This document shows positions 16,389 through 33,961 of a stretch of 45,092 nt of DNA, piece by piece. The stretch lies in the NCBI GenBank assembly GCA_028712885.1, contig JAQTPK010000020.1, positions 1 to 45,092 on the forward strand. The letters are read 5' to 3'. Position numbers and translations under genes: made by a program. This stretch comes from Syntrophales bacterium (GTDB lineage: Bacteria; Desulfobacterota; Syntrophia; Syntrophales; UBA4778). Below the pieces are notes generated by a model. It saw only the letters and a list, made by a program, of their open reading frames with translations, did not search any database and was not told the DNA's origin. The stretch's first letter is position 1. Each line of letters begins with the position of its first letter.

Positions 16389-17033
16389 TTATCGAGATGC
16401 GCTATTCGCTTCAGTTTTTCTCAGCACAAAAAAACGGTGATAAGGAAATTCAAATACTTTGTATGTCTTGACGATGATCAGACCGGAACGGCTGATTTCG
16501 AATTCTATTCTCCCCCGTGGACAGCCTTTCTTTCCTATTTCCCAGTAGTGCTCTCCGTCAAATTCATGCCTGACAGGCCGGTGAAAAGGGTGGGGGACCA
16601 GCCTTCTGATCGGCTTGATTTTCGGCAAATCGATATGGATTCTATAGACGGTGGTGACGTCGGGCAATGATAAGATGACGCTTCCTTGGGCGATTCTGCG
16701 GATCTCTTTCAGTGTTTCGGGGAATTTCTCGAAGGGCAAATGCTCAAGGACTTCACAGCACGAGACAAGGTCGAAGGATTCACTCCGAAATGGAATAGCT
16801 GATACGGATCCGACTGTATCGGGTCGCAGGTCATGAGCCATGTCCAGCGTAATAAGGTTTATCTTCTTATCTCTCAGGTATTTCGACACAAAACCGTTGC
16901 CGATTCCTATTTCCAGCATTTTCTTCGGCTTCAGCGAAATGATTTCATCGATCTGATGCCAATAGCTGCAAAATCGCTCTTTGGTATCGTAATTGCGATC
17001 GAAGCAGGAAGAGGACAACGGAGGAGGTTTCAT
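16389..17033 (-). CDS. Class I SAM-dependent methyltransferase
   Basis: This 214-residue Rossmann-fold methyltransferase has motif I MLEIGIGNGFVSKYL with the AdoMet-binding glycines and motif II LITLDMAHDLRPD. The SFDLVSCCEVLEHLPFEKFPETLKEI stretch is typical of Methyltransf_11/23-type enzymes. The start overlaps the flippase stop as ATGA. In this locus it probably methylates a sugar hydroxyl of the glycan or caps the chain, but the substrate cannot be read. The protein ends in basic segments with no extra domain. Confidence 0.85.
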   Translation of the reverse strand: MKPPPLSSSCFDRNYDTKERFCSYWHQIDEIISLKPKKMLEIGIGNGFVSKYLRDKKINLITLDMAHDLRPDTVGSVSAIPFRSESFDLVSCCEVLEHLPFEKFPETLKEIRRIAQGSVILSLPDVTTVYRIHIDLPKIKPIRRLVPHPFHRPVRHEFDGEHYWEIGKKGCPRGRIEFEISRSGLIIVKTYKVFEFPYHRFFVLRKTEANSASR

Positions 17034-18511
17034 AAAGATGCCAGCTTCTCTTTAATAAGCGTGATCATTCCGTATCCGAGAAAGCGGTCCAGCACAAAAG
17101 ACGCGAATATATAACTCAGGATACCGATGCCAACAAGAAAAAAGAATTCCGGGATACCGCAAGGTTGCAGGGCTGTCTGAAGAATGAGGACGAGGGCTGC
17201 CATGATGCATGAATACGCAAGTGGAATTGCCACCCTTTTGCACAAAGCGGAAATCCTGCATCCGGTCGCGGAAATGACCGTGGCGCAGAAGCCGAGAGAT
17301 GATACGGAGATGCTCAAAAGGACGGATATGGAAACGCCTAAAATACCCAAATGCACCGCGAGCGGGTAAATGGAAATAACCAGCAGAATGAGCCTGACCA
17401 GCTGCCATTTCGTGTCGATGCCTGGTCTCCCGATCGCATTGAAAACCGGCCCGGTAGTTGCCGCGACCGACCTTGCCAGGCCCGCCAGAACCAGAACCCG
17501 CATTGCGGGGACCATCGGCATCCATTTTTCCCCCATGAAAAGACGCGTGAACTCGGGAGCAAGGAGGAAGATTCCAGCGGCGAGGGGGATGGAAATGCAT
17601 GCCGTGACCTGAAGGACATCGAGATAGGCCGCTCTCAATTTCGGAATATCGTCCTGAAGTTTAGCATAGGCCGGAAATGTTACCTGGGTGAGCATATGTG
17701 TTACCTGGGTGGCGGGAAGGTTCGATATGTAATAGGCCATCTGATAAAGTCCGAGTGCTGCGGCTCCCAGCCATTTTCCGACAAACAGATCATCTCCCTG
17801 AGTGACCAAAAAGACCAGGATACTCGACCCGGTCATCCATTTGCCGAAACCTACTATCTCTTGCAGTTTGTTTTTATCCAGAGAAATGCGCGGCCGGTAG
17901 GGATGTACAACGTAAGACAACAGAAGCCCGAAAAGATTGGCGGCCAACCCTCCCCAGACCAGGGCCCAGACATTTTTCAGAATAATCGCGAGGGTGATTG
18001 TAACAATCAAGTCAGCGAATGCAGTCCCGAACTCGTAAGTGAATTGTTTTTTGAATTCCAATTCTTTCTGAAAAAACAGAATGCCGATATTTCTGAAACC
18101 CGAAAGTATCGTGGTTGCGGCGATGACCCGGATTATGAGGGCTGAATCGGGTGAATTAAAAAACCGGGATATCAGGGGGGCGGAAAAAAAAAGGATCAGA
18201 AAAAGGATTACGCCTCTTGCCGCCGAAAGGGTCCAGGAGGTATCGAGGTGGCCTCTTGTGACGTCTTTCTTCTGGATCAAGAAGGTCTGAAATCCCGTCT
18301 GAGAGAAATTATCGACTACGGATATGGCGAGCATGGCAATCCCGAGGAGGCCGAAATCATCCGGGGACAGGAGCCTCGCCAGGACAATTGTCCTGAGAAA
18401 CCCCAGACATCGATTTACGAGCTGGAGACTGAACAGCAACGCCCCCCCACGGAGCACCTTTGCCAAGATTGATTCGGTCGGGGGAGTCTGAATCTGTTGG
18501 ATCATAGACAT
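17030..18511 (-). CDS. Wzx-type oligosaccharide flippase (MOP superfamily)
   Basis: This 493-residue protein has about fourteen hydrophobic segments and the family's first-helix region GGALLFSLQLVNRCLGFLRT followed by IVLARLLSPDDFGLLGIAML. That marks the Polysacc_synt / WzxC-TuaB branch of the MOP flippases. It would move undecaprenyl-diphosphate-linked repeat units from the cytoplasmic to the periplasmic face. A TM-dense body and a GxWMTGSSILVFLVTQGDDLFVG central stretch fit the family. It is 59 bases downstream of the ligase/polymerase-like gene and overlaps the methyltransferase by four bases. Confidence 0.88.
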   Translation of the reverse strand: MSMIQQIQTPPTESILAKVLRGGALLFSLQLVNRCLGFLRTIVLARLLSPDDFGLLGIAMLAISVVDNFSQTGFQTFLIQKKDVTRGHLDTSWTLSAARGVILFLILFFSAPLISRFFNSPDSALIIRVIAATTILSGFRNIGILFFQKELEFKKQFTYEFGTAFADLIVTITLAIILKNVWALVWGGLAANLFGLLLSYVVHPYRPRISLDKNKLQEIVGFGKWMTGSSILVFLVTQGDDLFVGKWLGAAALGLYQMAYYISNLPATQVTHMLTQVTFPAYAKLQDDIPKLRAAYLDVLQVTACISIPLAAGIFLLAPEFTRLFMGEKWMPMVPAMRVLVLAGLARSVAATTGPVFNAIGRPGIDTKWQLVRLILLVISIYPLAVHLGILGVSISVLLSISVSSLGFCATVISATGCRISALCKRVAIPLAYSCIMAALVLILQTALQPCGIPEFFFLVGIGILSYIFASFVLDRFLGYGMITLIKEKLASL

Positions 18512-18570: not shown

Positions 18571-19989
18571 TCAGTGCTGTCCGGAAACAGCCCGCGCTTT
18601 CAATCCTTCATGTTCTTCCTTCCGTTCCCTTTTTTCCAAGGCCGGTATCATGACGATCATCGCGGTCAAAAACCAGAACGGCTCCATAATCCGAACGATG
18701 ATAAACGTATTTGCGCCTAAAGCATGAGTGAGCAAACCCGCAAATCCTCCAAGGAAACCGAGTGTCAGACCGCTGTACAGTGGATCTGAAGCTTCACGGT
18801 AGGCCCGCACGGCTACTCGAAAAATCGAGCCGATCAGAAACAGAAAAGCAATCAACCCGACCAGCCCTGTTTCCGCCAGTACGCGCGCGTACTGGGCGTC
18901 GAGGAAGCGGTATCCGGTTACGCCGAAGCCGATGACCGGGTGCCGCTTGAAATCGTTTGTCAGAACGATTTTCCATGACTGGAGTCTTTCAGATGTGGAG
19001 GTATCTATCCGGACACCTCCGACCATCATTTGACCCGATTCCGGCCTCTGCTTGAATGTATAAAGGACCCGGTCTTTTACTGTTTCCGGCACGATGAAGG
19101 GTGCCGCGATGAGAATTGCCAGAATGCATCCGGATATAAGAAGCTTCCGTTTGCTGAAGGCGAAAAGTACTATGAACATGGGGACCATGGCGAGCCAGGA
19201 GGCCCTGGAGAGAGTTGCCGCCAATGCAACCAGAATGAAAAGCAGGAGAATCCAGAAGAATGTCTTCGCCATCCACTTTCCATATCCGGCGAGTCGGAGA
19301 CCGAGCAATACTGAAAGCATCAGAACAAGATAGCCGCCGAGGGTATTCGGCTCCCCCTCCGGGCCCTCAAAAGGGGCGGAAACGCGCACTCCGCTTGGGA
19401 TCTGTGATATCGCGACGATGCAAACAATGAAACATACAATGAGCATGATATTGGTAAAGCGTTCGATCTGCTCTCTACTCTTGAGGTAATTGACCGCCAT
19501 GAAATAGACAATGAAGTATTCGAAGTACTTGATGACGAAGAAGAACCCTGCGCCTCCCTTGACCCTGCCCATCATGAAGCCGAAAAGGGTGGAAACTACG
19601 CAGGCAAGGAAGTAATAGAAAATAGGTCCGTTAAGAGGCGTTTTCAGGAACAGCCCGAGGTCTTTCCGGACCGCCGTCTTCAGAAACCAGCCCACTCCCA
19701 TGATGACCAGGAGGAAATCGTCAAGCCGCAGGGTGATTCCCCGGCCCCGGACGGATTCGCCGCCGACCCCCCCCACCATGAACTGCGGACTGAGAAGCAT
19801 GGAAAATAACAGGAGGTAAAGGGCGAGCTCGCCGCTGATGAAACTCACGACGGCGATGATTATTCCAAGTACGATGGCACCTGCGACGACATAGGAGAAT
19901 TTGGCTATAACAAATCCGGCCGCCAGAGTCAGGACAACGGCGAGGGCGATGAGGGGGATCGACTTGGGATCGTTTTCGGATTGCAGCAT
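18571..19989 (-). CDS. O-antigen ligase / Wzy polymerase-like membrane protein
   Basis: This 472-residue protein has about twelve membrane helices and the large periplasmic loop of the Wzy_C (O-antigen ligase) family. That loop contains ATLSRASWLA just before it and HPVIGFGVTGYRFLDAQYARVLAETG, with the conserved G and ALAETG-type end. It would polymerise or attach the glycan in the periplasm. The ATG at 19987-19989 is preferred over a TTG four codons upstream; neither has a ribosome binding site, because the region just upstream is a CCTTTGCCTTTAGCCATTTG repeat block. It sits between the kinase fusion and the flippase. Whether it is a polymerase or a ligase is not decided by sequence. Confidence 0.82.
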   Translation of the reverse strand: MLQSENDPKSIPLIALAVVLTLAAGFVIAKFSYVVAGAIVLGIIIAVVSFISGELALYLLLFSMLLSPQFMVGGVGGESVRGRGITLRLDDFLLVIMGVGWFLKTAVRKDLGLFLKTPLNGPIFYYFLACVVSTLFGFMMGRVKGGAGFFFVIKYFEYFIVYFMAVNYLKSREQIERFTNIMLIVCFIVCIVAISQIPSGVRVSAPFEGPEGEPNTLGGYLVLMLSVLLGLRLAGYGKWMAKTFFWILLLFILVALAATLSRASWLAMVPMFIVLFAFSKRKLLISGCILAILIAAPFIVPETVKDRVLYTFKQRPESGQMMVGGVRIDTSTSERLQSWKIVLTNDFKRHPVIGFGVTGYRFLDAQYARVLAETGLVGLIAFLFLIGSIFRVAVRAYREASDPLYSGLTLGFLGGFAGLLTHALGANTFIIVRIMEPFWFLTAMIVMIPALEKRERKEEHEGLKARAVSGQH

Positions 19990-20044
19990 GCTGATGGGCA
20001 AATGGCTAAAGGCAAAGGGCGAAAGTCTTTAGACCTGTTTTTCG

Positions 20045-23000
20045 TTATTCCTGACCAACCTGATCCCGATATGTTTTCTCGGGAATGGAGGACACTTTCT
20101 GGACGAAGCAGTCAGGATATAGTTTGCCCATGCCTGATTGTTTAATGTACTGCTGCGCCTCTTTCCTGGTAGAAAAATTTCCGACGTATATCCTATGCCA
20201 GACTCCCCGGCCGTCGATATTGACGCTTGCCCGGAACGGTTTCAGGCCTTTCCGCCCGAGCTCCGTTACGAGTTGTCTGGTTTCCCCCTCGTCCTGGTAT
20301 GCTTTAACCTGAATTGTATAATTGTGTCCGGGCAACGTTGTGTTTGCCGCCTGATCACTTCCTTCGGCCGCAGCAGCTTTCTGCTCCGGCTTCGGGACCT
20401 CTTTTTGTCCAGGAGGTTGTGCTGCCTCCGAAGGGTTCTTCTCCGGAATTGCGGAAGCCGCCGCGCCCGGGGGCGCAGCAGGGGTTGAAGCTTGAATTTC
20501 CGGTTTGGACGGTGTAACGGGCGCCTGCGCATCCGGACTCGACTGCGGCTGTTTCACTTCCGGCCCGGCAGGGTCCGTTTCTGGAAGCTGTTCCTGGATA
20601 GGCTTCTTGACAGAGCTGCCCTTATCGACGACCTTCCCGGACGATCTCCAGAAAAGGAGCTTTTTCGGAGTGATGTATCCGGACTGATAGAGAATGCCGG
20701 ATACCAGGAACAGGGCGGCGAGAATTGACAATGCTATTTTGAGCGCCTTGTTGCTTTGGCCTTCCTGCTGCATTTCAAAAGATTCCCGGGTTTCCTGCTG
20801 CTCCTTCCGGTCCTCTCCTTCGCTTTTCTCTTTTTTTCTCAGAAGCGAAAACAGGGAATTCCTTACCGCTTCGGCCGCGGCTATTGCCCTGTCTTTCAGC
20901 GATCTGGGCCTCTTTTCGTCTTCACTATAGTAATAGTAATCGCTGTCGAAGGAGGAGAAGTCACTGCTGATCTCCGCCCGGATTCCGTTCAGGATGATAC
21001 CGAGAATGTTTGCTTTCACATTGTCGAGCTGCGCCTTGGCCCGCTTGAGGGCGTTTCTCGAGATCCTCCCGACGCGGTACACCAGGACGATCCCGTCGAC
21101 CTTAGAGCTCAGGATAGCCGCATCCGTAGCCGCAAGCACCGGGGGGAGATCGATCAGAACGACGTCGTATTCCGCCCGCGCCCACTCGACGAAGTCGTTG
21201 AGGGTTTTGGAATTAATCAGCTCGGAGGGATTGAGAGGAATCGTGCCGCTTGGGATAATGTTCAGATTGTCTATCCCGGGTGTTTCGAGGATATCGTCGA
21301 CATTGAGCCTGCCCATCATAATGTCTTCGATCGTCCGGACCGCTTTCTTGAACTCGTAATTTCCGAGCAGGACGTCGGTAAGACCGGGCGTCTGGTCTAT
21401 GCCGAACAGGCCGGAAATAACGGGCCTGCGGAGGTCCGCTTCCACGAGGAGGACTTTTACTCCCGCCTGCGCCGTCGTGATTGCGAGGTTCACGACGGTC
21501 GTTGTTTTTCCCTCCCTCGGAGTGGCGCTGGTGAAGACAATGGTCTTGATATCGCCTTCGCGGCAGGCGAAATTGAGATTAGTGCGGAGCGAGCGGTAGC
21601 TTTCCGCCAGAGTCGAATGAGGCGCAAAATGCGATACGAGTCTGGAGACGCGCTCGCTCATGTCGTCTTTCATCCGGCCGGCGAATTCGTCGCCGAGCGA
21701 TTCCCTGATCTCCTTTGAGCTCACGTGGGGAACGACCCCAAGCACGGGTATCCCGAGAAATTTCTCGACCTCCTCGATTGTGCCGATCGAGGTGTCGAAC
21801 GTCTCGACGATGAAGGCGAACACAACCCCCAGGATCAGTCCCAGCAGAATTCCAACAAAAGCAGTTTCCATGGTCTTCGGCGGGTTGATCGGGATCAGCG
21901 GTTCGAGGGCCGGCCTGACAACCTGCACGTCTTCGATCTTCTCCGCTTCCTTGATCAGTGATTCCTGGTGCTTCTGTTCGAGGAGCGTGTAAACCTCGGT
22001 ATTGAGCTTTACGTTCCTTTCCAGCCGGGCGAGTTCCAGCCCCTTTTCCGGCAGTGCCTGGATCTGATTATCGAGATCTTCTGTCTTATCCCGAAGGTCC
22101 CTTATGGCCTTGTCAAGGTTTTTTTCCTGAGAGGTAAGCTGTCCTTTCATTGTTAAAATGGTCTCACGGATCTTCTTTTTGAGATCCCGGACCACGGGAT
22201 ATTCATCTGTGTATGTCAGCAGGAGCGTGTCCCGCTCCAGCATCATTTGCACCAGTTTGTCATTCAGGGCCTTGTAAAGGGAAGACGCCTCGTCCAGGTA
22301 AAAGCTGTTGCTCGAAGTAAGGGGTCTGACCTCCGCCTGGTCCAGGGCTCTCTGAACGAGCTGAACCTTAATCTTGTCCGCCTGCACCTTTTCATATACT
22401 GTCTTGGTCTGTGTGTGCTGTCCGAGAAGGCTGGATACCTGAGCGTCGAGAGAGATAAGCTTGTTCTTTGCCCGGAATTCCCGCACCAGCTCCTCGGAAT
22501 CCCTGAGCTTCTCCTTAATGACCTTGAGCTGCCCTTCAATGAACCTTTTCGCCTCGAATGTTCTGCGGTTTATTTCGAGGACGCGCTCGTCCTTGTAAAC
22601 AAGAGAGATAGTATTGGCAATTTTCTGGGCGAACTTGGGCTCTTCGGATGTAAAAGAGATATTGATGAGATTGCTCGACCCTTCCTGCTCGGCGTCGGTT
22701 CTCTTTTTCAGATCGAGGATGATCTGCTGGTAACGGGGGTTGCCGCGTATTTCCTCGGAAGTGAGATTCGGCGGGATCAGGTTCAGGCGCTTGGCCGCAA
22801 GCTCGACGACATGGAGGCTCTTCAGGACCGCTACCTGGGTCTGGATATCTTCTCCCGTCTGCCCCCAGCCGAATCCCGGCATCATCATGCCGTACAGTCC
22901 GGACATCTGGCTGGATCGGTCTATCTTGATGCTGGCCGTTGCCTTGTACAGCGGAACCGGCGAGCTGATGATGGCGAAGAAAAAGCTGAACAGCCCGAGG

Positions 23001-23083
23001 GAAACCATCGTGAACGCTATCAGGATCTTTCTTTTCCTGAGAATGCGCCAGTAGTCCCTCAGGTTGAAATCATACTGGATCAT
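20045..23083 (-). CDS. Wzz/BY-kinase fusion with an extra membrane helix and C-terminal SPOR domain
   Basis: This 1012-residue chain-length regulator and tyrosine autokinase resembles Wzc. Residues 1-435 form a Wzz domain between two membrane helices (about 20-40 and 415-435) with a long periplasmic coiled-coil region. The cytoplasmic BY-kinase has Walker A SATPREGKTTT (about 519-529), Walker A' VLLVEADLRRP (about 547-557) and Walker B VVLIDLPP (about 633-640). A tyrosine cluster SDYYYYSEDE lies at about 714-723, where Wzc proteins normally end. Here roughly 290 more residues follow: a third helix (about 780-802), a Pro/Ala/Lys-rich linker and a SPOR domain (YTIQVKAY..., about 922-995). Predicted topology puts SPOR in the periplasm, so export could be tied to denuded peptidoglycan. 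It lies 43 bases before the ligase-like gene. Confidence 0.92.
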   Translation of the reverse strand: MIQYDFNLRDYWRILRKRKILIAFTMVSLGLFSFFFAIISSPVPLYKATASIKIDRSSQMSGLYGMMMPGFGWGQTGEDIQTQVAVLKSLHVVELAAKRLNLIPPNLTSEEIRGNPRYQQIILDLKKRTDAEQEGSSNLINISFTSEEPKFAQKIANTISLVYKDERVLEINRRTFEAKRFIEGQLKVIKEKLRDSEELVREFRAKNKLISLDAQVSSLLGQHTQTKTVYEKVQADKIKVQLVQRALDQAEVRPLTSSNSFYLDEASSLYKALNDKLVQMMLERDTLLLTYTDEYPVVRDLKKKIRETILTMKGQLTSQEKNLDKAIRDLRDKTEDLDNQIQALPEKGLELARLERNVKLNTEVYTLLEQKHQESLIKEAEKIEDVQVVRPALEPLIPINPPKTMETAFVGILLGLILGVVFAFIVETFDTSIGTIEEVEKFLGIPVLGVVPHVSSKEIRESLGDEFAGRMKDDMSERVSRLVSHFAPHSTLAESYRSLRTNLNFACREGDIKTIVFTSATPREGKTTTVVNLAITTAQAGVKVLLVEADLRRPVISGLFGIDQTPGLTDVLLGNYEFKKAVRTIEDIMMGRLNVDDILETPGIDNLNIIPSGTIPLNPSELINSKTLNDFVEWARAEYDVVLIDLPPVLAATDAAILSSKVDGIVLVYRVGRISRNALKRAKAQLDNVKANILGIILNGIRAEISSDFSSFDSDYYYYSEDEKRPRSLKDRAIAAAEAVRNSLFSLLRKKEKSEGEDRKEQQETRESFEMQQEGQSNKALKIALSILAALFLVSGILYQSGYITPKKLLFWRSSGKVVDKGSSVKKPIQEQLPETDPAGPEVKQPQSSPDAQAPVTPSKPEIQASTPAAPPGAAASAIPEKNPSEAAQPPGQKEVPKPEQKAAAAEGSDQAANTTLPGHNYTIQVKAYQDEGETRQLVTELGRKGLKPFRASVNIDGRGVWHRIYVGNFSTRKEAQQYIKQSGMGKLYPDCFVQKVSSIPEKTYRDQVGQE

Positions 23084-23419: not shown

Positions 23420-24637
23420 CTACTGCAGGCTCCTGATCCTCAGATGGGAATTAGGATCGAAGTAGTAGTCGCGATATCTGCCGGGATAGAACAGGTAATC
23501 CAGCAGCGGAACGGTGTTCGTGATGAACTCGTTGATGTCGCCGATTGTCCTTCTCGGGACATAGACAACGTCGCCGTTCTTGAGGGCGACGTTCTGGGAC
23601 ATATCGCCTCTCTTGAGGAGTTCGTCCATATCAGCGGAAATGATGAGCGGTTTGCCTCCGCGCTCCACGTATTCCCTGATGATCTTGATATCGGATTTGA
23701 TCGCGATCTGCGTCATGCCGCCCGAAATGGAAACGGCAGCAAGCAGATCGGATGCATCCTTGAGACGGTAAATGCCCTGGGTCCTCACCTCTCCGAAGAC
23801 GTAAATCCTTTCGCCGAATGTCGGGAGCTCCGGCACTGTGACGATATCGCCGTTATCCACAATAACGTTCTGGCTTACGTCGCCCCTGAACATCGCATCG
23901 TAAAGGTTCAGCGTGTATTTTCGTCCTCTTCTGACGAGCTCCACTTTCCGGAGGTCGGCGTTGCCCGATTCCGGTATGCTCATTGCACCCACGCTTGTTG
24001 CTACCACGTTGGAAGCGCTCATTCCGGTCACGCCCGCACCCCGTCCCATTGTGGGGCCACCAGCGATAACGATAAGATCGAGGACTGAGACTTTACCCTT
24101 CAGCGGGTATTTGCCCGGTCCCGATACCCCCTGCTGGAGGATATTGATCTGTCCGAACAGCAGGGCGCTTTTGCTTTTGTACTCCTTCACGATTACTTCG
24201 AGACGAGGCTGGCGGATATACCGCTTCAGCTCCGATATGAGGATCTCACGGACTTCGTTCGCCGTGAAGCCGATTACCGTGAGGTTATCAACGAAAGAGT
24301 AAGATATTTTACCGTCCGGGCGGACGATCGCATCGTAAGTATTGACCTTGGGCCCTTCCCAGAAGTTGATGGTCAGGATGTCCCCCGGCCCGATAATATA
24401 TTCCGGAATGCCGCGCTTCTCCGTAAAGACGCTGTTCTCCTGCACCGTGCTCATGGCGCGAATCTCTTCAAGCATCTGTCTTCGCTCCGCTTCGGAGACC
24501 TGCGTGGCGAGTACGGTATCTTTATATTTGGCGACAGGAATGCCCCTGGCCTCGAATGTGCAGGAGGCGCACATAATCAAAGCCAGAAGGCCGCATAATA
24601 TAAGAGCTTTTTTTCCAGTCATGCCCCGATTTCCCAT
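23420..24637 (-). CDS. Wza-like polysaccharide export protein with SLBB domains
   Basis: This 405-residue outer-membrane polysaccharide exporter carries an N-terminal hydrophobic leader ending CASC, which resembles but does not match a standard lipobox (position -3 is Cys). The Poly_export domain follows (YIIGPGDILTINFWEGPKV..., about 81-175), and then two SLBB domains (GPGKYPLKGKVSVLDLIVIAGG and YVFGEVRTQGIYRLKDASDL). The C-terminus ends LDYLFYPGRYRDYYFDP without an obvious amphipathic Wza pore helix. Two starts are possible, 24637 or 24622, and a small hairpin (24641-24656) sits just before the first. With the kinase fusion it forms the export gate; the partner spans the periplasm. Confidence 0.9.
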   Translation of the reverse strand: MGNRGMTGKKALILCGLLALIMCASCTFEARGIPVAKYKDTVLATQVSEAERRQMLEEIRAMSTVQENSVFTEKRGIPEYIIGPGDILTINFWEGPKVNTYDAIVRPDGKISYSFVDNLTVIGFTANEVREILISELKRYIRQPRLEVIVKEYKSKSALLFGQINILQQGVSGPGKYPLKGKVSVLDLIVIAGGPTMGRGAGVTGMSASNVVATSVGAMSIPESGNADLRKVELVRRGRKYTLNLYDAMFRGDVSQNVIVDNGDIVTVPELPTFGERIYVFGEVRTQGIYRLKDASDLLAAVSISGGMTQIAIKSDIKIIREYVERGGKPLIISADMDELLKRGDMSQNVALKNGDVVYVPRRTIGDINEFITNTVPLLDYLFYPGRYRDYYFDPNSHLRIRSLQ

Positions 24638-24789: not shown

Positions 24790-25986
24790 CTACCGGTGCT
24801 TGACCTCCCGTCCGGGGCGGCGCAGGGCGCCGCGGAACACGAACGGGAGGTGCCCTGCTACCTCAATAATCCTCCGCAGGTAAAGGCTGCATCGGAACGG
24901 CAGCCTGCCCTGATAATGCTTCTGCTTCAAAACGGACCGGGGCGGTACGAGCGTCCTGAGAAGGAAGAGAAGCTTGTTCCTCATTCCCCGGTTCCGGTCA
25001 AGATATAACAGAAAACTGCTTCCCCGGATTCGTTTCCCCGCGAGTTGGAGCTTGAGGAACAGGCGCTCCCCCGCCCTCAGGCGGCTCGGTTTCAGCATTG
25101 CAATCGGCTTGTCCAGCGCGTGCAGGCCGGTGTGGCTTCTGACTATCTCCAGGGCGAGATAGGCGAAGCGCGATAATCCCGAACGCCGGCACTCATCGGC
25201 AAACCTGCCCCATGAAATCTCCCTTTGAAAAGCCTGTACGGCGTAATGAATGTCGCAGATGAGATTCAGCCGGTCAAAGGAGTGGCCGATCCTCAACGCA
25301 TGTTCGCATAGATAAATGAGGAGGTGTTCCGGACTGAACATGCGCGATGGCACGCCGCCTATCAGAACGGGGCGGGACTCCCTCCATAGAGACTCGATGT
25401 CGATTTCGGAAGCAAACGCGGCGGGTGTGGACGTGTTCACCGGGTGCCAGTGGAGGTGAATCGGGGGGAATTCCGAACCGGCGCGGTATTCGACACTGGC
25501 GAGATAACCGGGGGGATTTCTCAGCGCCTCCCCCGGAGGGCTGTCGACGCTGCTGTACCCCATCGACGTGAGCGCCGCATCGGCTTTCATGAAATCCGGC
25601 CTCGGGACGAGGATGTCGATATCGGAAGCCGGCCTCAAGGCAAAATGGGGATAGACTGTTTCCGCCAATGCGATTCCCTTCAGCACGATCCAGGGGATAC
25701 CTTCCGCGTCAAAACTGCGTCCGATCGTCCCGAGGCATTTTACAGCTTCGCTGTTTTTCCGGATTGTCTGGCGGAAAAGGGTCCTGAATTGTTCAAGAAC
25801 CTCCGCGGGCAGGTCTGCTTCCCATCCCCTCTTTACTATCCTGTGATAAAAAAGAGGAGCCACCCCCTCCCGGTGACATTCATCCAGAATCGCCGGCCAA
25901 TTGCGCCCTGTGGAAAATATTTCGCCGATTCCCCTGTTATCGGCATTTTCGAACAGGACCTTGATAATGAAGCCCGTTTCCGCCAT
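24790..25986 (-). CDS. NTP_transf_5-family nucleotidyltransferase
   Basis: This 398-residue protein of the putative nucleotidyltransferase family PF14907-type has WIVLKGIALAETVYPHFALRP followed by ASDIDILVP, with Asp122 and Asp124 as the DxD metal ligands and a family-typical LRPxxDIDILV context. A basic C-terminal region contains several KLQ/RNK segments. Members occur in polysaccharide and RiPP loci, but their substrate is not established to my knowledge. It lies 152 bases upstream of the export gene in the same direction and 90 bases from a divergent HD-GYP gene. The palindromes at 24735-24788 separate it from the export gene. Confidence 0.75.
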   Translation of the reverse strand: MAETGFIIKVLFENADNRGIGEIFSTGRNWPAILDECHREGVAPLFYHRIVKRGWEADLPAEVLEQFRTLFRQTIRKNSEAVKCLGTIGRSFDAEGIPWIVLKGIALAETVYPHFALRPASDIDILVPRPDFMKADAALTSMGYSSVDSPPGEALRNPPGYLASVEYRAGSEFPPIHLHWHPVNTSTPAAFASEIDIESLWRESRPVLIGGVPSRMFSPEHLLIYLCEHALRIGHSFDRLNLICDIHYAVQAFQREISWGRFADECRRSGLSRFAYLALEIVRSHTGLHALDKPIAMLKPSRLRAGERLFLKLQLAGKRIRGSSFLLYLDRNRGMRNKLLFLLRTLVPPRSVLKQKHYQGRLPFRCSLYLRRIIEVAGHLPFVFRGALRRPGREVKHR

Positions 25987-26076: not shown

Positions 26077-27567
26077 ATGACCAATGCAAAAGGCGGAAAG
26101 ATCCGTTTCTCGGATTTCCTGGGGAGTAATCTCATAAGGAAAAAGTCGGGGCCTGCTGAGGAAAAGGGGCGGGAACAGGAAGAGGCGACTGCGCCCGATC
26201 GCAAAAGCGGCGTGCTGGACAGGACCGATCTCAGAGAAAAAAACCCCCTGCCTGGAAAGTCGGATACTCGCAATCATGCGCTCGTCGGCGACAGTACGGG
26301 CGGCAGCGGGAATGCCGCAAAATCCCGGGATTTCTTCCGCTTCAAGGATCTCATGGAGTTCAGGGGAACGCCGGCGCCCGAGGAAGCTGCTCGCGAAGAA
26401 ATAGCACAGAGCAGTGATGAAAATAAAGAACAAATGCTGAGCCTGTTTCCGGAGGCTTCGTCTTTTCTTTACCCCGGCGCAGGAGATGCGGTTCCGCCCG
26501 GCGGAGCGGGTGTCGATAAGGAGGACGGGGCAGGTCCGGAGCGGGATATCCTGAAGGAAGATGATGAGGAGGAAAAGCGACGTCAGGAGGGGGCGGGAAT
26601 TTCTCTGCGGGAGGAAAAAACGCCGCAGGGGAAAACTGCCGTAACGGAAGAGGGGGCGTCCGAAGAAGCCGTGCAGATTTATTCCGCCGCCGCGCATTTT
26701 CTCCAGCAAGTGAAGGAAAGCGTCGTACGGAACAACGCATTCGCCGTCGAGCCTGCGGTCAACCTTATCGCCCGGATTACAGGCTCTCCTGAATTGATTG
26801 ATAAAATGTACTCCCTGACCATCCCCGTGACTCAGGATGAGGACTATAATATCTCCCACCAGATCAATACGATGGTGTACGCCCTTAAAATGGGTAAAGG
26901 CTTCTCGTACAGCGGCAGAAAACTCGGGGAGCTTGCATTGGCCGCTCTGCTGCACGATGTGGGCATGTTCCAGATACCGGAGAAGGTGACCGGTAAATTC
27001 GGAAAACTTACGGATGAAGATCTGGCGCTCATAAAAAGACACCCGGAGTTTGGAAGAAAAATTTTGAATAATTACGAAGGAGGGCATCCCGTACTGGCCG
27101 AAGCTGCTTATCAGCACCATGAACGGGAAAGCGGGCAGGGCTACCCGAGGGGTTTGAGCGGCCTGCAGATCATGGAATTTTCGAAGATAATCAGCATAGT
27201 CGACAGTTATGAGGCTATGACGCACAACAGGCCCTACCGGAAGGCCCTGATGCAGGCCTTTTCGGCAAAAGAACTGATCAAATCGAAGCACTCCCTGTTT
27301 GCCCCGAATGTGATCAAGGTCTTTCTCAAAGAAATATCGCTCTACCCGCTCGGAAGTTATGTCCGCCTGAACAATCGCGCCATAGGACGCGTGGTCGCAA
27401 CGGATCAGTCCAGACCATTGCGTCCGGAGGTGCTGATAATTTTCGATGCCGAAGGTCACCGGGTGTTTGAGAATATCGTGCTTAAGCTTGACGAAAATCC
27501 CATCTTCTACATCCAGGACAGCATATCGGAAGATGAGCTGCCCAATGTCCCCTCCCAGGAATTTTAA
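26077..27567 (+). CDS. HD-GYP-type protein with a long charged N-terminal region
   Basis: This 496-residue protein has about 190 low-complexity, acidic/basic residues, likely disordered, followed by a C-terminal HD-GYP-like domain. HDVGMFQIP (His293, Asp294) corresponds to HDIGKxxIP but has Met in place of Lys. HPEFGRKIL, HHERESGQGYPRGL (347-360) and IVDSYEAMTHNRPYRKA follow. The GYP is present, but the usual DG in HHExxDGxGYP reads SG. The metal-binding HD pair is kept, so c-di-GMP phosphodiesterase activity is possible but not assured; a degenerate c-di-GMP receptor is an alternative. It is divergent from the nucleotidyltransferase, across 90 bases that contain a poor TTCTTG-17-TAATAC promoter candidate. 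It may tune glycan production. Confidence 0.78.
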   Translation: MTNAKGGKIRFSDFLGSNLIRKKSGPAEEKGREQEEATAPDRKSGVLDRTDLREKNPLPGKSDTRNHALVGDSTGGSGNAAKSRDFFRFKDLMEFRGTPAPEEAAREEIAQSSDENKEQMLSLFPEASSFLYPGAGDAVPPGGAGVDKEDGAGPERDILKEDDEEEKRRQEGAGISLREEKTPQGKTAVTEEGASEEAVQIYSAAAHFLQQVKESVVRNNAFAVEPAVNLIARITGSPELIDKMYSLTIPVTQDEDYNISHQINTMVYALKMGKGFSYSGRKLGELALAALLHDVGMFQIPEKVTGKFGKLTDEDLALIKRHPEFGRKILNNYEGGHPVLAEAAYQHHERESGQGYPRGLSGLQIMEFSKIISIVDSYEAMTHNRPYRKALMQAFSAKELIKSKHSLFAPNVIKVFLKEISLYPLGSYVRLNNRAIGRVVATDQSRPLRPEVLIIFDAEGHRVFENIVLKLDENPIFYIQDSISEDELPNVPSQEF

Positions 27568-29879: not shown

Positions 29880-30686
29880 TTAAGGATGCCCCTGCGTTAT
29901 ATCCTTCACCACCTTTTTTATCGTCATCCCTTCTATCAGCCTGATCTTGGAGATAAAACCGATCATCAGGCTCATATCGCATAAGTTATTGATTTTTCTC
30001 GGGATGCCCTCGGAAAAATGATAAATCTCGCTGACGGCGTCGGAAGTAAAAAGTTCTTTATTGCTGCCTGCCTTGCTCAGGCGGCTGGAAATGTATTCGG
30101 TGACCTCATCACGATTAAGGGGATCGAGATGGAACTTGATCGCGATCCTCTGATCCAGTTGTTTGATGTCGTGAATAATCGTCTGCAATTCCGGCTGGCC
30201 GATCAGGATCAGCGTAAGGAGAAAGCGGTCGCTGAGCTGGAAATTCAGGAGGAGCCGAATTTCTTCAAAGGTTTCTTTGGAAATCAGCTGTGCTTCGTCG
30301 ACGATGAGAACTGTCGACTTGTCCATCTTCTCGTTTTCGAGAATTCTCGACTTGATCATGTTCCAGAGATCGACTTTAAGGCCGTTTTCGGGATTGAGGC
30401 CGAACTGGTAGCATATTTCTTTAATAAATTCCACCGGTTCAAGGCTGGGATTGGTAATCAGTCCGAGATCGCAGTCTATTTCGGACAGTTTCTGAATGAG
30501 GACTCGGCTCAGGGTCGTTTTGCCGCATCCGACTTCCCCGGTCAGCATGGCCGCTCCCTTTTTCCGCTGAACCGCATAGAGGAGCCTGACGAGCGCCTCT
30601 TCGTATTCCGCGGAATAATACATGAATTTCGGATCGGGAACGTTCTCGAAGGGGTATTCGTCCAATCCCCAGTATTCTAAATACAT
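29880..30686 (-). CDS. ExeA-like AAA ATPase
   Basis: This 268-residue AAA ATPase is of the type found in general secretion (ExeA) and PEP-CTERM/exosortase-linked EPS loci. It begins YLEYWGLDEYPFENVPDPKF, a hallmark of the family, and has Walker A GEVGCGKTT (about 50-58) and Walker B VLIVDEAQ. An LTLILIGQPEL stretch and a sensor-like GIPRKINNLCDMSL segment follow. It lacks the peptidoglycan-binding C-terminal domain of full ExeA. The ATG start lies inside the end of the phosphatase gene (ten-base overlap), so the two proteins are co-translated. It may couple energy to export or assembly; the precise role is not known. Confidence 0.85.
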   Translation of the reverse strand: MYLEYWGLDEYPFENVPDPKFMYYSAEYEEALVRLLYAVQRKKGAAMLTGEVGCGKTTLSRVLIQKLSEIDCDLGLITNPSLEPVEFIKEICYQFGLNPENGLKVDLWNMIKSRILENEKMDKSTVLIVDEAQLISKETFEEIRLLLNFQLSDRFLLTLILIGQPELQTIIHDIKQLDQRIAIKFHLDPLNRDEVTEYISSRLSKAGSNKELFTSDAVSEIYHFSEGIPRKINNLCDMSLMIGFISKIRLIEGMTIKKVVKDITQGHP

Positions 30687-31132
30687 TTGATCATTCCCTC
30701 GACGGACAGAAATATCTCGGAAAAACAGAGCCTGTAGTGATAACTCGATTGTTTATGGCAGTCTTTGATATCCTGCCCGGAACCGCTGGGATTTCCTGAA
30801 AAGGACTTGAGAAGAAAAAGCTTGCCCGCCGCGTCAGGATATCTGTTCAGGATAGCGGCCTTTTGTGCCGCCTCCATGGTGATTATCATGTCTGCTTCCC
30901 GGACAAGATCGGGGGTGAGCGTACGTGAATGATGCCCGGTGAAAGGCATCCCGTGTTTTTCGAGGAGTTCCGCGGCGGTCTTATCCCCGGGGGCTCCATT
31001 CATTTCGAGCAGACCCGCCGAAGAAACAGAGATATCGTTCCTTCCGGATTTCCTCAACTGCTCCATAAGGATTCGCTCAGCCATGAAACTTCGGGTTATA
31101 TTGGCTGCGCAGACGAAAAGTATCTTTTTCAT
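30677..31132 (-). CDS. Low-molecular-weight protein tyrosine phosphatase (Wzb-like)
   Basis: This 151-residue LMW-PTP has the catalytic P-loop CAANITRS (Cys8 and Arg14 of CX5R). The likely general acid Asp lies in GQDIKDC near residue 120, although the usual DP context is altered. The length is family-typical. Such phosphatases reverse autophosphorylation of Wzc-type kinases; the kinase here is about 7.5 kb away on the same strand, which supports a pairing but does not prove it. The gene overlaps the ExeA-like ATPase by ten bases. The atypical C-terminus (HKQSSYHYRLCFSEIF) is a caution for activity. Confidence 0.85.
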   Translation of the reverse strand: MKKILFVCAANITRSFMAERILMEQLRKSGRNDISVSSAGLLEMNGAPGDKTAAELLEKHGMPFTGHHSRTLTPDLVREADMIITMEAAQKAAILNRYPDAAGKLFLLKSFSGNPSGSGQDIKDCHKQSSYHYRLCFSEIFLSVEGMIKCI

Positions 31133-31672: not shown

Positions 31673-33961
31673 ATGGCAGTCAAAGAGACACCGACGACAC
31701 AAATTACGGAACTTGCCGAACAGCTTGCGCTGCGAAGCGCTCTGCAGAATATAACCAACCGCATTCATGCCGCACAGAACCTCAGGCAGATTCTCGTCGA
31801 CCTCAAAGAGGGCATTCTGAGCCTTTTCAAGGCCAATTCGATAACCATTTATGTCGCAGATGCGGTGAGAAACGAAATATATTCCATGTTCCTTGCCGGG
31901 ACCAAACTCAATGAAATCCGGCTTCCGATCAACAGCAAGAGCATCGCCGGCTACGTCGCCAGCACCCGAAAATGCGTGAATGTCGCGGATGCTTACAATG
32001 CGGCGGAGCTCCGCTCCATCGACCCCCAGCTCAGGTTCGACGAACGCTGGGACAAGAAAACGGGTTTCCGGACCGCCCAGATCCTTGCCTTGCCGGTAGT
32101 ATACGAGGACAACCTGATGGGAGTTGTCCAGATAATAAACCGCAAAGGCGGAGGGAAGTTTTCCAACGAGGAAAGGACGTTCCTTGAAGAGATTGCCGAC
32201 GTGCTTGGAATCGCTTTCTACAACCAGCAAAAGGCGGCAAGACGGAGGAAGACCCGTTTCGACTACCTGGTCGCCAGGGGATTCATCACGGAAGCCGATC
32301 TGGAGGCTTCCTGGAATGAAGCCCGCAAGGCCGGGGACTCGATGGAAAATTTTCTGATGAAGAAGTTCAAGATCTCGAAGGAGGACGTCGGCAAGTCCCT
32401 CGAGGATTTCTTTCAATGCAAGTTCATCCCGTTCAGCGACAAAATTCCCGTTCCGGAAGACCTCTGCAGAGTGCTCCGGCAGGAATATCTGCGGAAGGAA
32501 CTCTGGGTTCCGCTCGAAAAAACCGGGGATCGGATCAGCGTCCTCGTGGACGATCCGAACAACATCCTGAAAAGGGATATGATCGAGACGCTCCTGAAGA
32601 CGAAGCGCATCGAGTACAACGTTTCTCTGAAAGAGGACATAGTAAAATTCATAAACTACTTCTATCGCATCGATGATGCGCAGGAGTCGATTGCGGAAAT
32701 TCTCGGCCGGCTGGATTTGGGAGACGAGGCGGATGCGGATGAAGAGGAAATCGTATCCGAATCGGACAGCGTCATCATGCAGCTCGTGAATAAAATTATC
32801 AACGACGCCTATCTGAGCCGGGCCTCCGATATTCATATCGAGCCCAATACGAAGAAGAAAACGCTGGATGTGCGCTTCCGGGTGGACGGCGACTGCGTAC
32901 GGTACCAGTCGGTTCCGTACAGCTACCGCGCCGCTACCGTGTCCCGGATAAAAATCATGTCGAACCTGGACATTACCGAGCGGCGACTTCCCCAGGACGG
33001 GAAGATCCGCTTCCGCAGGCCGGGCGCAGAAGAGATCGAGCTTCGCGTCGCGACTGTCCCCACTCAGGGGGGCGTTGAAGACGTCGTCATGAGAATCCTT
33101 GCCAAGGGAGAGACCATGACCCTTGAGCAGATGTCGATGTCGCCGTCAAATTACAGGAACTTCCTTAATACCCTGGAAAAGCCGTACGGCATCGTTCTTG
33201 TCGTCGGTCCGACCGGCTCGGGCAAGACGACGACCCTCCACGCGGCCCTGCATCACATCAATACGCCGGATACGAAGATCTGGACGGCGGAAGACCCGGT
33301 CGAAATAACTCAGGAAGGCCTGCGGCAGGTTCAGGTCAACCCAAAAATCGGCTTTGATTTCAGCCATGCAATGCGCGCTTTTCTGCGGGCCGACCCGGAT
33401 GTCATCATGGTGGGGGAAATGCGTGATTACGAAACCGCGAAGATCGGGGTCGAGGCCTCACTGACCGGGCATCTCGTTTTCAGCACCCTGCATACGAACA
33501 GCGCCCCGGAGACGATCGTGCGCCTGCTGGATATGGGCATAGATCCGTTCAATTTCGCGGATTCGCTGCTCGGCGTCCTCGCCCAGCGCCTCGTTCGCAC
33601 ACTGTGCAGGCGATGCAAGGAGGAGTACAAACCGTCCCGGGAGGAATTCGACGATATTGTCATGAATTACGGCGAGAGCCTGTTCCCGGAGCTGAACGTG
33701 GATTTTGACAAGCTGAAGCTTTATCGGCCAAAAGGATGCCCCGACTGCAACCAGACCGGATTCAGGGGAAGAATGAGCGTTCACGAGCTGCTGATTGCGA
33801 CAGATGTGATCAAGCGCATGGTTGCGCGAAAGGACCCTGTCGAGCAGCTGAGGGCCCAGGCCGTCAAGGAGGGAATGAGAACGCTGCTGCAGGACGGCAT
33901 TTACAAGGTCGTGACCGGGGAGACGGACTTTAAGCAGGTAATTGCCGTCTGTATGCGGTAG
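31673..33961 (+). CDS. GAF-MshEN-GspE type II secretion/type IV pilus-like ATPase
   Basis: This 762-residue ATPase of the GspE/PilB class carries an N-terminal GAF domain (about 25-185, AGYVASTRKCVNVADAYN and TAQILALPVVYEDNLMGVVQ). An MshEN-type region (about 195-325) follows. The ATPase core has ASDIHIEP, Walker A GPTGSGKT (512-519), DPDVIMVGEMRDYETA, and STLHTNSA. A four-cysteine zinc motif is seen (Cys645/648 and Cys689/692). GAF domains bind small ligands and MshEN domains bind c-di-GMP in known cases, so the motor may be doubly regulated. No PilC, PilT, GspF or pilin gene is nearby, so its partner is outside the window or it drives something else, such as glycan export. A weak GAGAG ribosome binding site precedes the ATG. 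Confidence 0.9.
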   Translation: MAVKETPTTQITELAEQLALRSALQNITNRIHAAQNLRQILVDLKEGILSLFKANSITIYVADAVRNEIYSMFLAGTKLNEIRLPINSKSIAGYVASTRKCVNVADAYNAAELRSIDPQLRFDERWDKKTGFRTAQILALPVVYEDNLMGVVQIINRKGGGKFSNEERTFLEEIADVLGIAFYNQQKAARRRKTRFDYLVARGFITEADLEASWNEARKAGDSMENFLMKKFKISKEDVGKSLEDFFQCKFIPFSDKIPVPEDLCRVLRQEYLRKELWVPLEKTGDRISVLVDDPNNILKRDMIETLLKTKRIEYNVSLKEDIVKFINYFYRIDDAQESIAEILGRLDLGDEADADEEEIVSESDSVIMQLVNKIINDAYLSRASDIHIEPNTKKKTLDVRFRVDGDCVRYQSVPYSYRAATVSRIKIMSNLDITERRLPQDGKIRFRRPGAEEIELRVATVPTQGGVEDVVMRILAKGETMTLEQMSMSPSNYRNFLNTLEKPYGIVLVVGPTGSGKTTTLHAALHHINTPDTKIWTAEDPVEITQEGLRQVQVNPKIGFDFSHAMRAFLRADPDVIMVGEMRDYETAKIGVEASLTGHLVFSTLHTNSAPETIVRLLDMGIDPFNFADSLLGVLAQRLVRTLCRRCKEEYKPSREEFDDIVMNYGESLFPELNVDFDKLKLYRPKGCPDCNQTGFRGRMSVHELLIATDVIKRMVARKDPVEQLRAQAVKEGMRTLLQDGIYKVVTGETDFKQVIAVCMR

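Follow-up and report, generated by a model that had tools for sequence, protein, structure and literature searches.

What does a capsule-type tyrosine kinase gain from a tail that runs on past its tyrosine cluster and back through the membrane? Wzc has two transmembrane (TM) helices and a free C-terminus at its tyrosine cluster, whereas the kinase analysed here, from a Syntrophales bacterium, adds a third helix, a linker and a SPOR domain. The gene lies in a stretch of 45,092 nucleotides, called the window below, of a draft genome of 2.93 Mb in 97 contigs. Our analysis suggests that coat export is probably tethered to the cell wall in this and related bacteria, and is perhaps positioned by the wall as well.

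Architecture of the kinase and its locus

The gene (the query) is encoded on the minus strand as one reading frame that runs unbroken from its ATG to its stop codon, with no internal stops. Its features, in window coordinates, are as follows.

20045..23083, minus strand: PCP-2a/BY-kinase of 1012 aa in a single open frame, extended by a third TM helix and a SPOR domain at the C-terminus
22799..23071, minus strand: Wzz domain (aa 5-95); contains TM1, seen as a hydropathy peak at aa 20-38; Pfam PF02706, E 1.6e-6, and hydropathy
21806..22033, minus strand: GNVR and TM2 (aa 351-426); PF13807, E 3.1e-12 (aa 351-425); hydropathy peak aa 408-426
21059..21544, minus strand: BY-kinase domain, AAA_31 (aa 514-675); PF13614, E 3.5e-13, and motif positions
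20927..20938, minus strand: tyrosine cluster YYYY (aa 716-719), read from the sequence
20684..20755, minus strand: third TM helix, TM3 (aa 777-800); hydropathy peak 2.35 at aa 780-798, AlphaFold2 helix, K/R asymmetry of relatives
20330..20683, minus strand: Pro/Ala-rich linker (aa 801-918), predicted disordered; 17% P, 15% A; pLDDT <50 for aa 807-918
20102..20323, minus strand: SPOR domain (aa 921-994) with Q925, W962 and R964; Pfam E 7.9e-12, AlphaFold2 and RlpA match

An earlier sequence-only reading had placed Wzz, GNVR, kinase and SPOR parts on this single chain, and the Pfam profile search matched all four. The order that it gave for the region beyond the kinase (tyrosine cluster, third helix, Pro/Ala linker and SPOR) was also borne out, and we place these parts at Y716-719, 777-800, 801-918 and 921-994. 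The protein belongs to the PCP-2a/BY-kinase (Wzc) type, with a Wzz and GNVR periplasmic part between two TM helices and with Walker A (REGKTT, 523-528), Walker A' (VLLVEADLRR, 544-553) and Walker B (VVLIDLPP, 641-648) all present. A profile of its relatives matched the Wzc structures at E 3.8e-65. The query is also like Wzc and Etk in its Wzz-GNVR-kinase order, its tyrosine cluster and the presence of Wza-like and Wzb-like genes in the locus. The tyrosine cluster, however, is not a free C-terminus, as 293 further residues follow Y716-719. In an AlphaFold2 model built from 26 relatives, aa 777-800 are helical, aa 807-918 are of low confidence, and the SPOR fold is confident at 922-996. The Walker A' motif (window 21425-21454, minus strand) has Glu for the first Asp; at this position the family (n = 83) has DxD in 37 members, ExD in 27 and GxD in 15.

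The genes around the query encode the following proteins.

23420..24637, minus strand: Wza-like outer-membrane polysaccharide export protein, next gene upstream (Poly_export and SLBB)
18571..20001, minus strand: Wzy_C/O-antigen ligase-like polymerase, next gene downstream (PF04932, E 5.1e-12; downstream in most relatives)
17030..18511, minus strand: Wzx-type flippase (Polysacc_synt_3, E 7.3e-88)
30677..31132, minus strand: low-molecular-weight tyrosine phosphatase, Wzb-like (PF01451, E 1.5e-25; the only one found in the genome)
29880..30686, minus strand: ExeA-like AAA ATPase of the XrtA-associated type (TIGR03015, E 1.5e-72; AAA_22; near the kinase in many relatives)
24790..25986, minus strand: nucleotidyltransferase of the NTP_transf_5 family, adjacent to the Wza-like gene on its upstream side (PF14907, E 2.9e-52)

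Glycosyltransferases and an ABC exporter are also encoded near the query gene. Judged by its predicted gene products, the locus specifies a Wzx/Wzy-type pathway in full, including counterparts of Wza, Wzb and Wzc. No RNA families were found in the window. The kinase, export protein and ATPase resemble the models of the XrtA/PEP-CTERM exopolysaccharide system, but all three score below the curated cut-offs (TIGR03018, 128 vs 230.65 bits; TIGR03027, 133.1 vs 180; TIGR03015, 244.3 vs 324.5). Elsewhere in the genome there are exosortase (PF09721) matches at C95:14486-15076 and C65:101731-101874, as well as separate XrtA-like chain-length and kinase genes on contigs C72 and C27, so that this is apparently not the only polysaccharide system of the genome. 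Within the polysaccharide cluster, an HD-GYP-type protein is encoded on the opposite strand (window 26077-27567, plus strand), and c-di-GMP control of the cluster is possible. A GAF-MshEN-T2SSE ATPase (window 31673-33961, plus strand) adjoins the cluster; MshEN domains are c-di-GMP binders.

The SPOR domain and the topology of the tail

The SPOR profile match reached 45.8 bits against a curated cut-off of 21 (PF05036, aa 921-994). The sequence-only reading had named such a profile match as the test of the domain's identity, which the Pfam E of 7.9e-12 settles; structure prediction of the same region, which it had also proposed, gave a folded domain with a pLDDT of about 93-96 in the core. The predicted model has the beta-alpha-beta-beta-alpha-beta RNP-like fold. 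Its top structural match is 6ozd, a Burkholderia exported protein (Z 9.1). Known SPOR domains that it matches are those of RlpA (6i09, a structure with glycan; Z 8.7 and rmsd 2.4 over 75), CwlC (Z 7.8), DedD (7.5) and DamX (6.0). Foldseek alone returned nothing below E 0.001 with this model, with known SPOR domains near the top at a probability of 1.00. A single-sequence search of the PDB with the SPOR part gave chance matches only, and a profile search listed repeat-protein artefacts first (designed PPR proteins, with scores summed over repeats) and then CwlC, DedD and FtsN.

In FtsN, residues Q251, W283 and R285 matter for septal localisation (PMC6895207), and sequence comparison identifies Q925, W962 and R964 of the query as their equivalents. 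The glycan-contact Gln in strand 1 and the W-x-R in strand 3 are therefore both present. Across 35 SPOR domains of the family, W is kept in 29 and R in 32, Q only in 15. In close pairs for which dN/dS could be measured, the ratio is 0.14-0.21 for SPOR and 0.19-0.49 for the linker, values that indicate purifying selection on the SPOR domain and a looser linker. Two Amidase_3 genes and five other SPOR proteins are encoded in the query genome. Amidase_3 is the enzyme type that produces denuded glycan, and the presence of the two genes counts in favour of the proposed wall anchor.

With its short cytoplasmic stretch, single TM helix, disordered linker and C-terminal SPOR domain, the tail is laid out like FtsN and DedD; these, however, are separate division proteins, whereas the query tail is fused to an export kinase. 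The same layout is found in a stand-alone SPOR protein of 261 aa from the query genome (L006), which is 33% identical to the query over aa 871-998. This identity is no higher than that among the SPOR domains of family members, and the neighbours of the L006 gene (ParA-like ATPase, AMP-ligase and 2-hydroxyglutaryl-CoA dehydratase-type genes) give no clue to the origin of the tail. A stand-alone bitopic SPOR protein of the query genome whose SPOR domain resembles that of the query is encoded at L122:5600-6418, minus strand.

K/R residues are more frequent in the 20 positions on the N-side of TM3 than in the 20 on the C-side in 56 of 64 relatives (means of 5.5 before and 2.6 after, per 20 residues), a charge pattern that fits a chain lying in the cytoplasm before the helix and in the periplasm after it. 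The flanks of the query itself (KEQQETRESFEMQQEGQSNK on the N-side and YQSGYITPKKLLFWRSSGKV on the C-side) break the positive-inside rule, and its topology is therefore assigned from the family and from the logic of its domains. The periplasmic tail proposed from the sequence thus keeps the backing of three helices, a kinase inside and the family asymmetry, although the query's flanks disagree; a cytoplasmic C-terminus is not supported.

Variation of the tail among relatives

When genome contigs were scanned with the single query protein, no relative was found, and a scan with an alignment was needed. The genome collection yielded 80 loci, distributed over Desulfobacterota, Latescibacterota, Nitrospirota and Rokubacteria/Methylomirabilota among others; the same architecture, which the sequence-only reading had proposed to look for in other genomes, is present in relatives from several phyla. 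About 28 of 100 genomes of the source's order have a close relative (44-58% identity). A Wza-like gene lies directly upstream on the same strand in 61 of the 69 relatives with enough flank. Four SPOR-bearing loci (L089, L097, L102 and L121) have no Wza-like gene in the available flank and are possibly orphan copies outside export clusters.

The core of the relatives is conserved, and the region beyond the tyrosine cluster is variable. Pfam found SPOR on 36 and SH3_3 (SH3b) on five of the tails of 69 distinct relatives, and a recognised domain is absent from about half of the tails. By class, 20 tails have one SPOR domain, 16 have two, five have SH3b, 20 have TM3 without a recognised domain, 16 have no third helix, and six are cut off or undecided. 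The more distant Wzc-like kinases of the phylum stop 1-65 residues past the kinase domain and have no helix there, so the third helix marks the query's group and one divergent pair.

These counts bear on whether the fusion is real. That a frameshift or misassembly joined two genes, which a draft in so many contigs might invite, is extremely improbable, as tens of independent assemblies from several phyla show this architecture and the Wza-like and Wzy-like genes flank the query gene on the same strand. Because relatives from separate assemblies also carry SPOR (36 of 69 tails), the fusion is taken as genuine, and the assembly error that the sequence-only reading had warned of can be discarded.

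On a quick maximum likelihood tree of the core, tail states changed at least 26 times, a count that draft assemblies may inflate. Two loci, L085 and L093, are 90.7% identical in DNA to about aa 799, just past TM3; the tails that follow are unrelated, SPOR in the former and two SH3b in the latter (L085:11398-12453, L093:6326-7181), and downstream of the swapped tail 92.7% identity resumes. Since two such similar loci differ in exactly the tail segment, the tail is a swappable module. The second SPOR of L085 ends in another frame, and the gene may therefore be damaged or contain a sequencing error.

The divergent pair has lost the kinase motifs.

L149:5615-8146 and L150:5238-7640 (same proteins): degenerate Wzc-like proteins L139 and L141; motif loss, TM3 and two SPOR domains kept

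In L139 and L141, the Walker A Lys is replaced by Arg, the Walker A' Arg is absent (SDITN or SDLTN), DxPP has become DSTP or DSSP, and the tyrosine cluster is absent. An ExeA-like ATPase gene precedes theirs, and neither a Wza-like nor a Wzy-like gene adjoins. DSTP alone is no mark of decay, since it also occurs in L086 and L089, which keep the Walker A Lys and the tyrosine cluster. That the pair keeps the tail without the kinase motifs favours an anchoring or assembly role independent of the kinase.

Possible roles of the tail

The explanation that we consider rather probable is that a Wzc-like co-polymerase and autokinase with a DedD/FtsN-like tail acts as a tether between the export machine and the wall, most likely with enrichment at amidase-processed glycan. 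Physical coupling to the wall is the natural reading, because the SPOR domain is genuine, keeps its glycan residues, lies beyond TM3 and is encoded in an export locus. We infer a topology, an octamer, peptidoglycan binding and a place for the query protein along the following lines. The protein is a Wzc-like co-polymerase and tyrosine autokinase extended by a tail of helix, disordered linker and SPOR domain. Its coiled-coil periplasmic part, together with TM1 and TM2, would assemble with the Wza-like exporter in the usual way, while the kinase and tyrosine cluster would be cytoplasmic; a cytoplasmic leash would follow, after which the chain would re-cross the inner membrane, so that the SPOR domain would reach into the periplasm at the end of a linker about 110 residues long. 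Should the protein form an octamer as Wzc does, about eight SPOR domains would bind peptidoglycan with high avidity, and tethering by so many domains would be the simplest use of the tail. The machine would then be held at the wall, with its highest density most likely at sites of peptide-free glycan production by amidases (the division site or new poles), and coat would be deposited where the envelope undergoes remodelling.

By analogy, SPOR proteins make septal placement of the machine plausible, as does CpsD of Streptococcus pneumoniae, which is found at the septum and directs capsule synthesis there; this placement depends on CpsC (PMC4574921). The CpsC/CpsD pair (PCP-2b and BY-kinase) is like the query in having a BY-kinase and in placing capsule synthesis at the division site; it differs in consisting of two proteins, in being Gram-positive and in having no SPOR or wall-binding tail described (PMC4574921).

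The sequence-only reading had proposed that wall state places or times export, with a signal passing between periplasm and kinase. Physical coupling agrees with the SPOR domain, its residues, TM3 and the locus; the signalling part fares worse, as many close relatives lack the tail or have SH3b for SPOR, and L139 and L141 keep TM3 and two SPOR domains after loss of the kinase motifs and the tyrosine cluster, and tethering or positioning fits better. In a two-way scheme, SPOR bound to denuded glycan would shift TM3 and, with it, the access of the tyrosine tail to the kinase site of the neighbour, and hence autophosphorylation and export. TM3 does follow directly on the tyrosine cluster (a median of 51 residues from the last Tyr in SPOR-bearing members), and a Wzb-like phosphatase is present in the locus. 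The Tyr-rich C-terminus of E. coli Wzc occupies the active site of a neighbour and threads through it during phosphorylation, after which the octamer dissociates (PMC8285477). Because Wzc uses a free, threading C-terminus (PMC8285477), anchoring this end in the membrane must alter the kinase cycle. However, a disordered linker of about 110 residues between TM3 and SPOR would be a poor conductor of force or signal, SPOR has been lost or swapped with SH3b many times on the kinase tree (the changes counted above, at least 26), and the tail persists in the degenerate kinases. A signal from wall to kinase is thus possible but unlikely, and we do not favour it.

A more modest proposal would have the tail keep the complex in register with peptidoglycan, or through a gap in this layer, with no septal or cell-cycle preference; it is a narrower form of the anchor explanation, minus the place. 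SPOR and SH3b are both wall-binding types that recognise different features. Since SH3b, which takes SPOR's place in some relatives, binds other wall features, its presence argues for general wall anchoring over septal denuded glycan. Against this, SPOR is far commoner than SH3b (36 vs 5 tails), and those SPOR domains that have been studied attach to denuded glycan and localise to septa (PMC6895207), which leaves a placeless tether doubtful. It is still less probable, and in our opinion very much so, that the ligand of SPOR is the exported polysaccharide or some periplasmic partner instead of peptidoglycan; the domain sits within an export machine, and a small RNP-like fold could hold another glycan or a protein, but the query retains the residues that contact glycan in RlpA and are important in FtsN, and most relatives have the W-x-R pair (W 29/35, R 32/35). 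Evidence that speaks against the favoured anchor is that about half of the tails have no known domain and 16 proteins have no third helix, so that the anchor is dispensable for the core function; the charges flanking TM3 in the query and the retention of the Gln in only 15 of 35 family SPOR domains also count against it.

Both halves of the protein belong to known families, and their joined form, its spread and the swapping of domains appear undescribed. Our literature search, confined to open-licence papers, found no description of a SPOR-kinase fusion, which leaves its absence unproven. The finding bears on the way in which export of capsule or EPS is coordinated in diderm bacteria with division and with growth of the wall. 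In pneumococcus a BY-kinase coordinates capsule through separate proteins, whereas here the physical link is within one chain. It also poses a structural puzzle, as the Wzc model works with a free Tyr-rich C-terminus that threads through the active site of the neighbour and in the query's family that end is membrane-anchored. More broadly, and as a tentative suggestion to which we give only limited credence, these proteins might form a widespread class of diderm export kinases in which interchangeable wall-reading modules (SPOR or SH3b) on TM3 link the synthesis of surface polysaccharide to peptidoglycan state and, on engaging the wall, set both the site of the machine and the kinase/octamer cycle. 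Because the link is held in one chain and is swapped between types of wall-binding domain, the question can be tested by deletions, domain swaps and microscopy.
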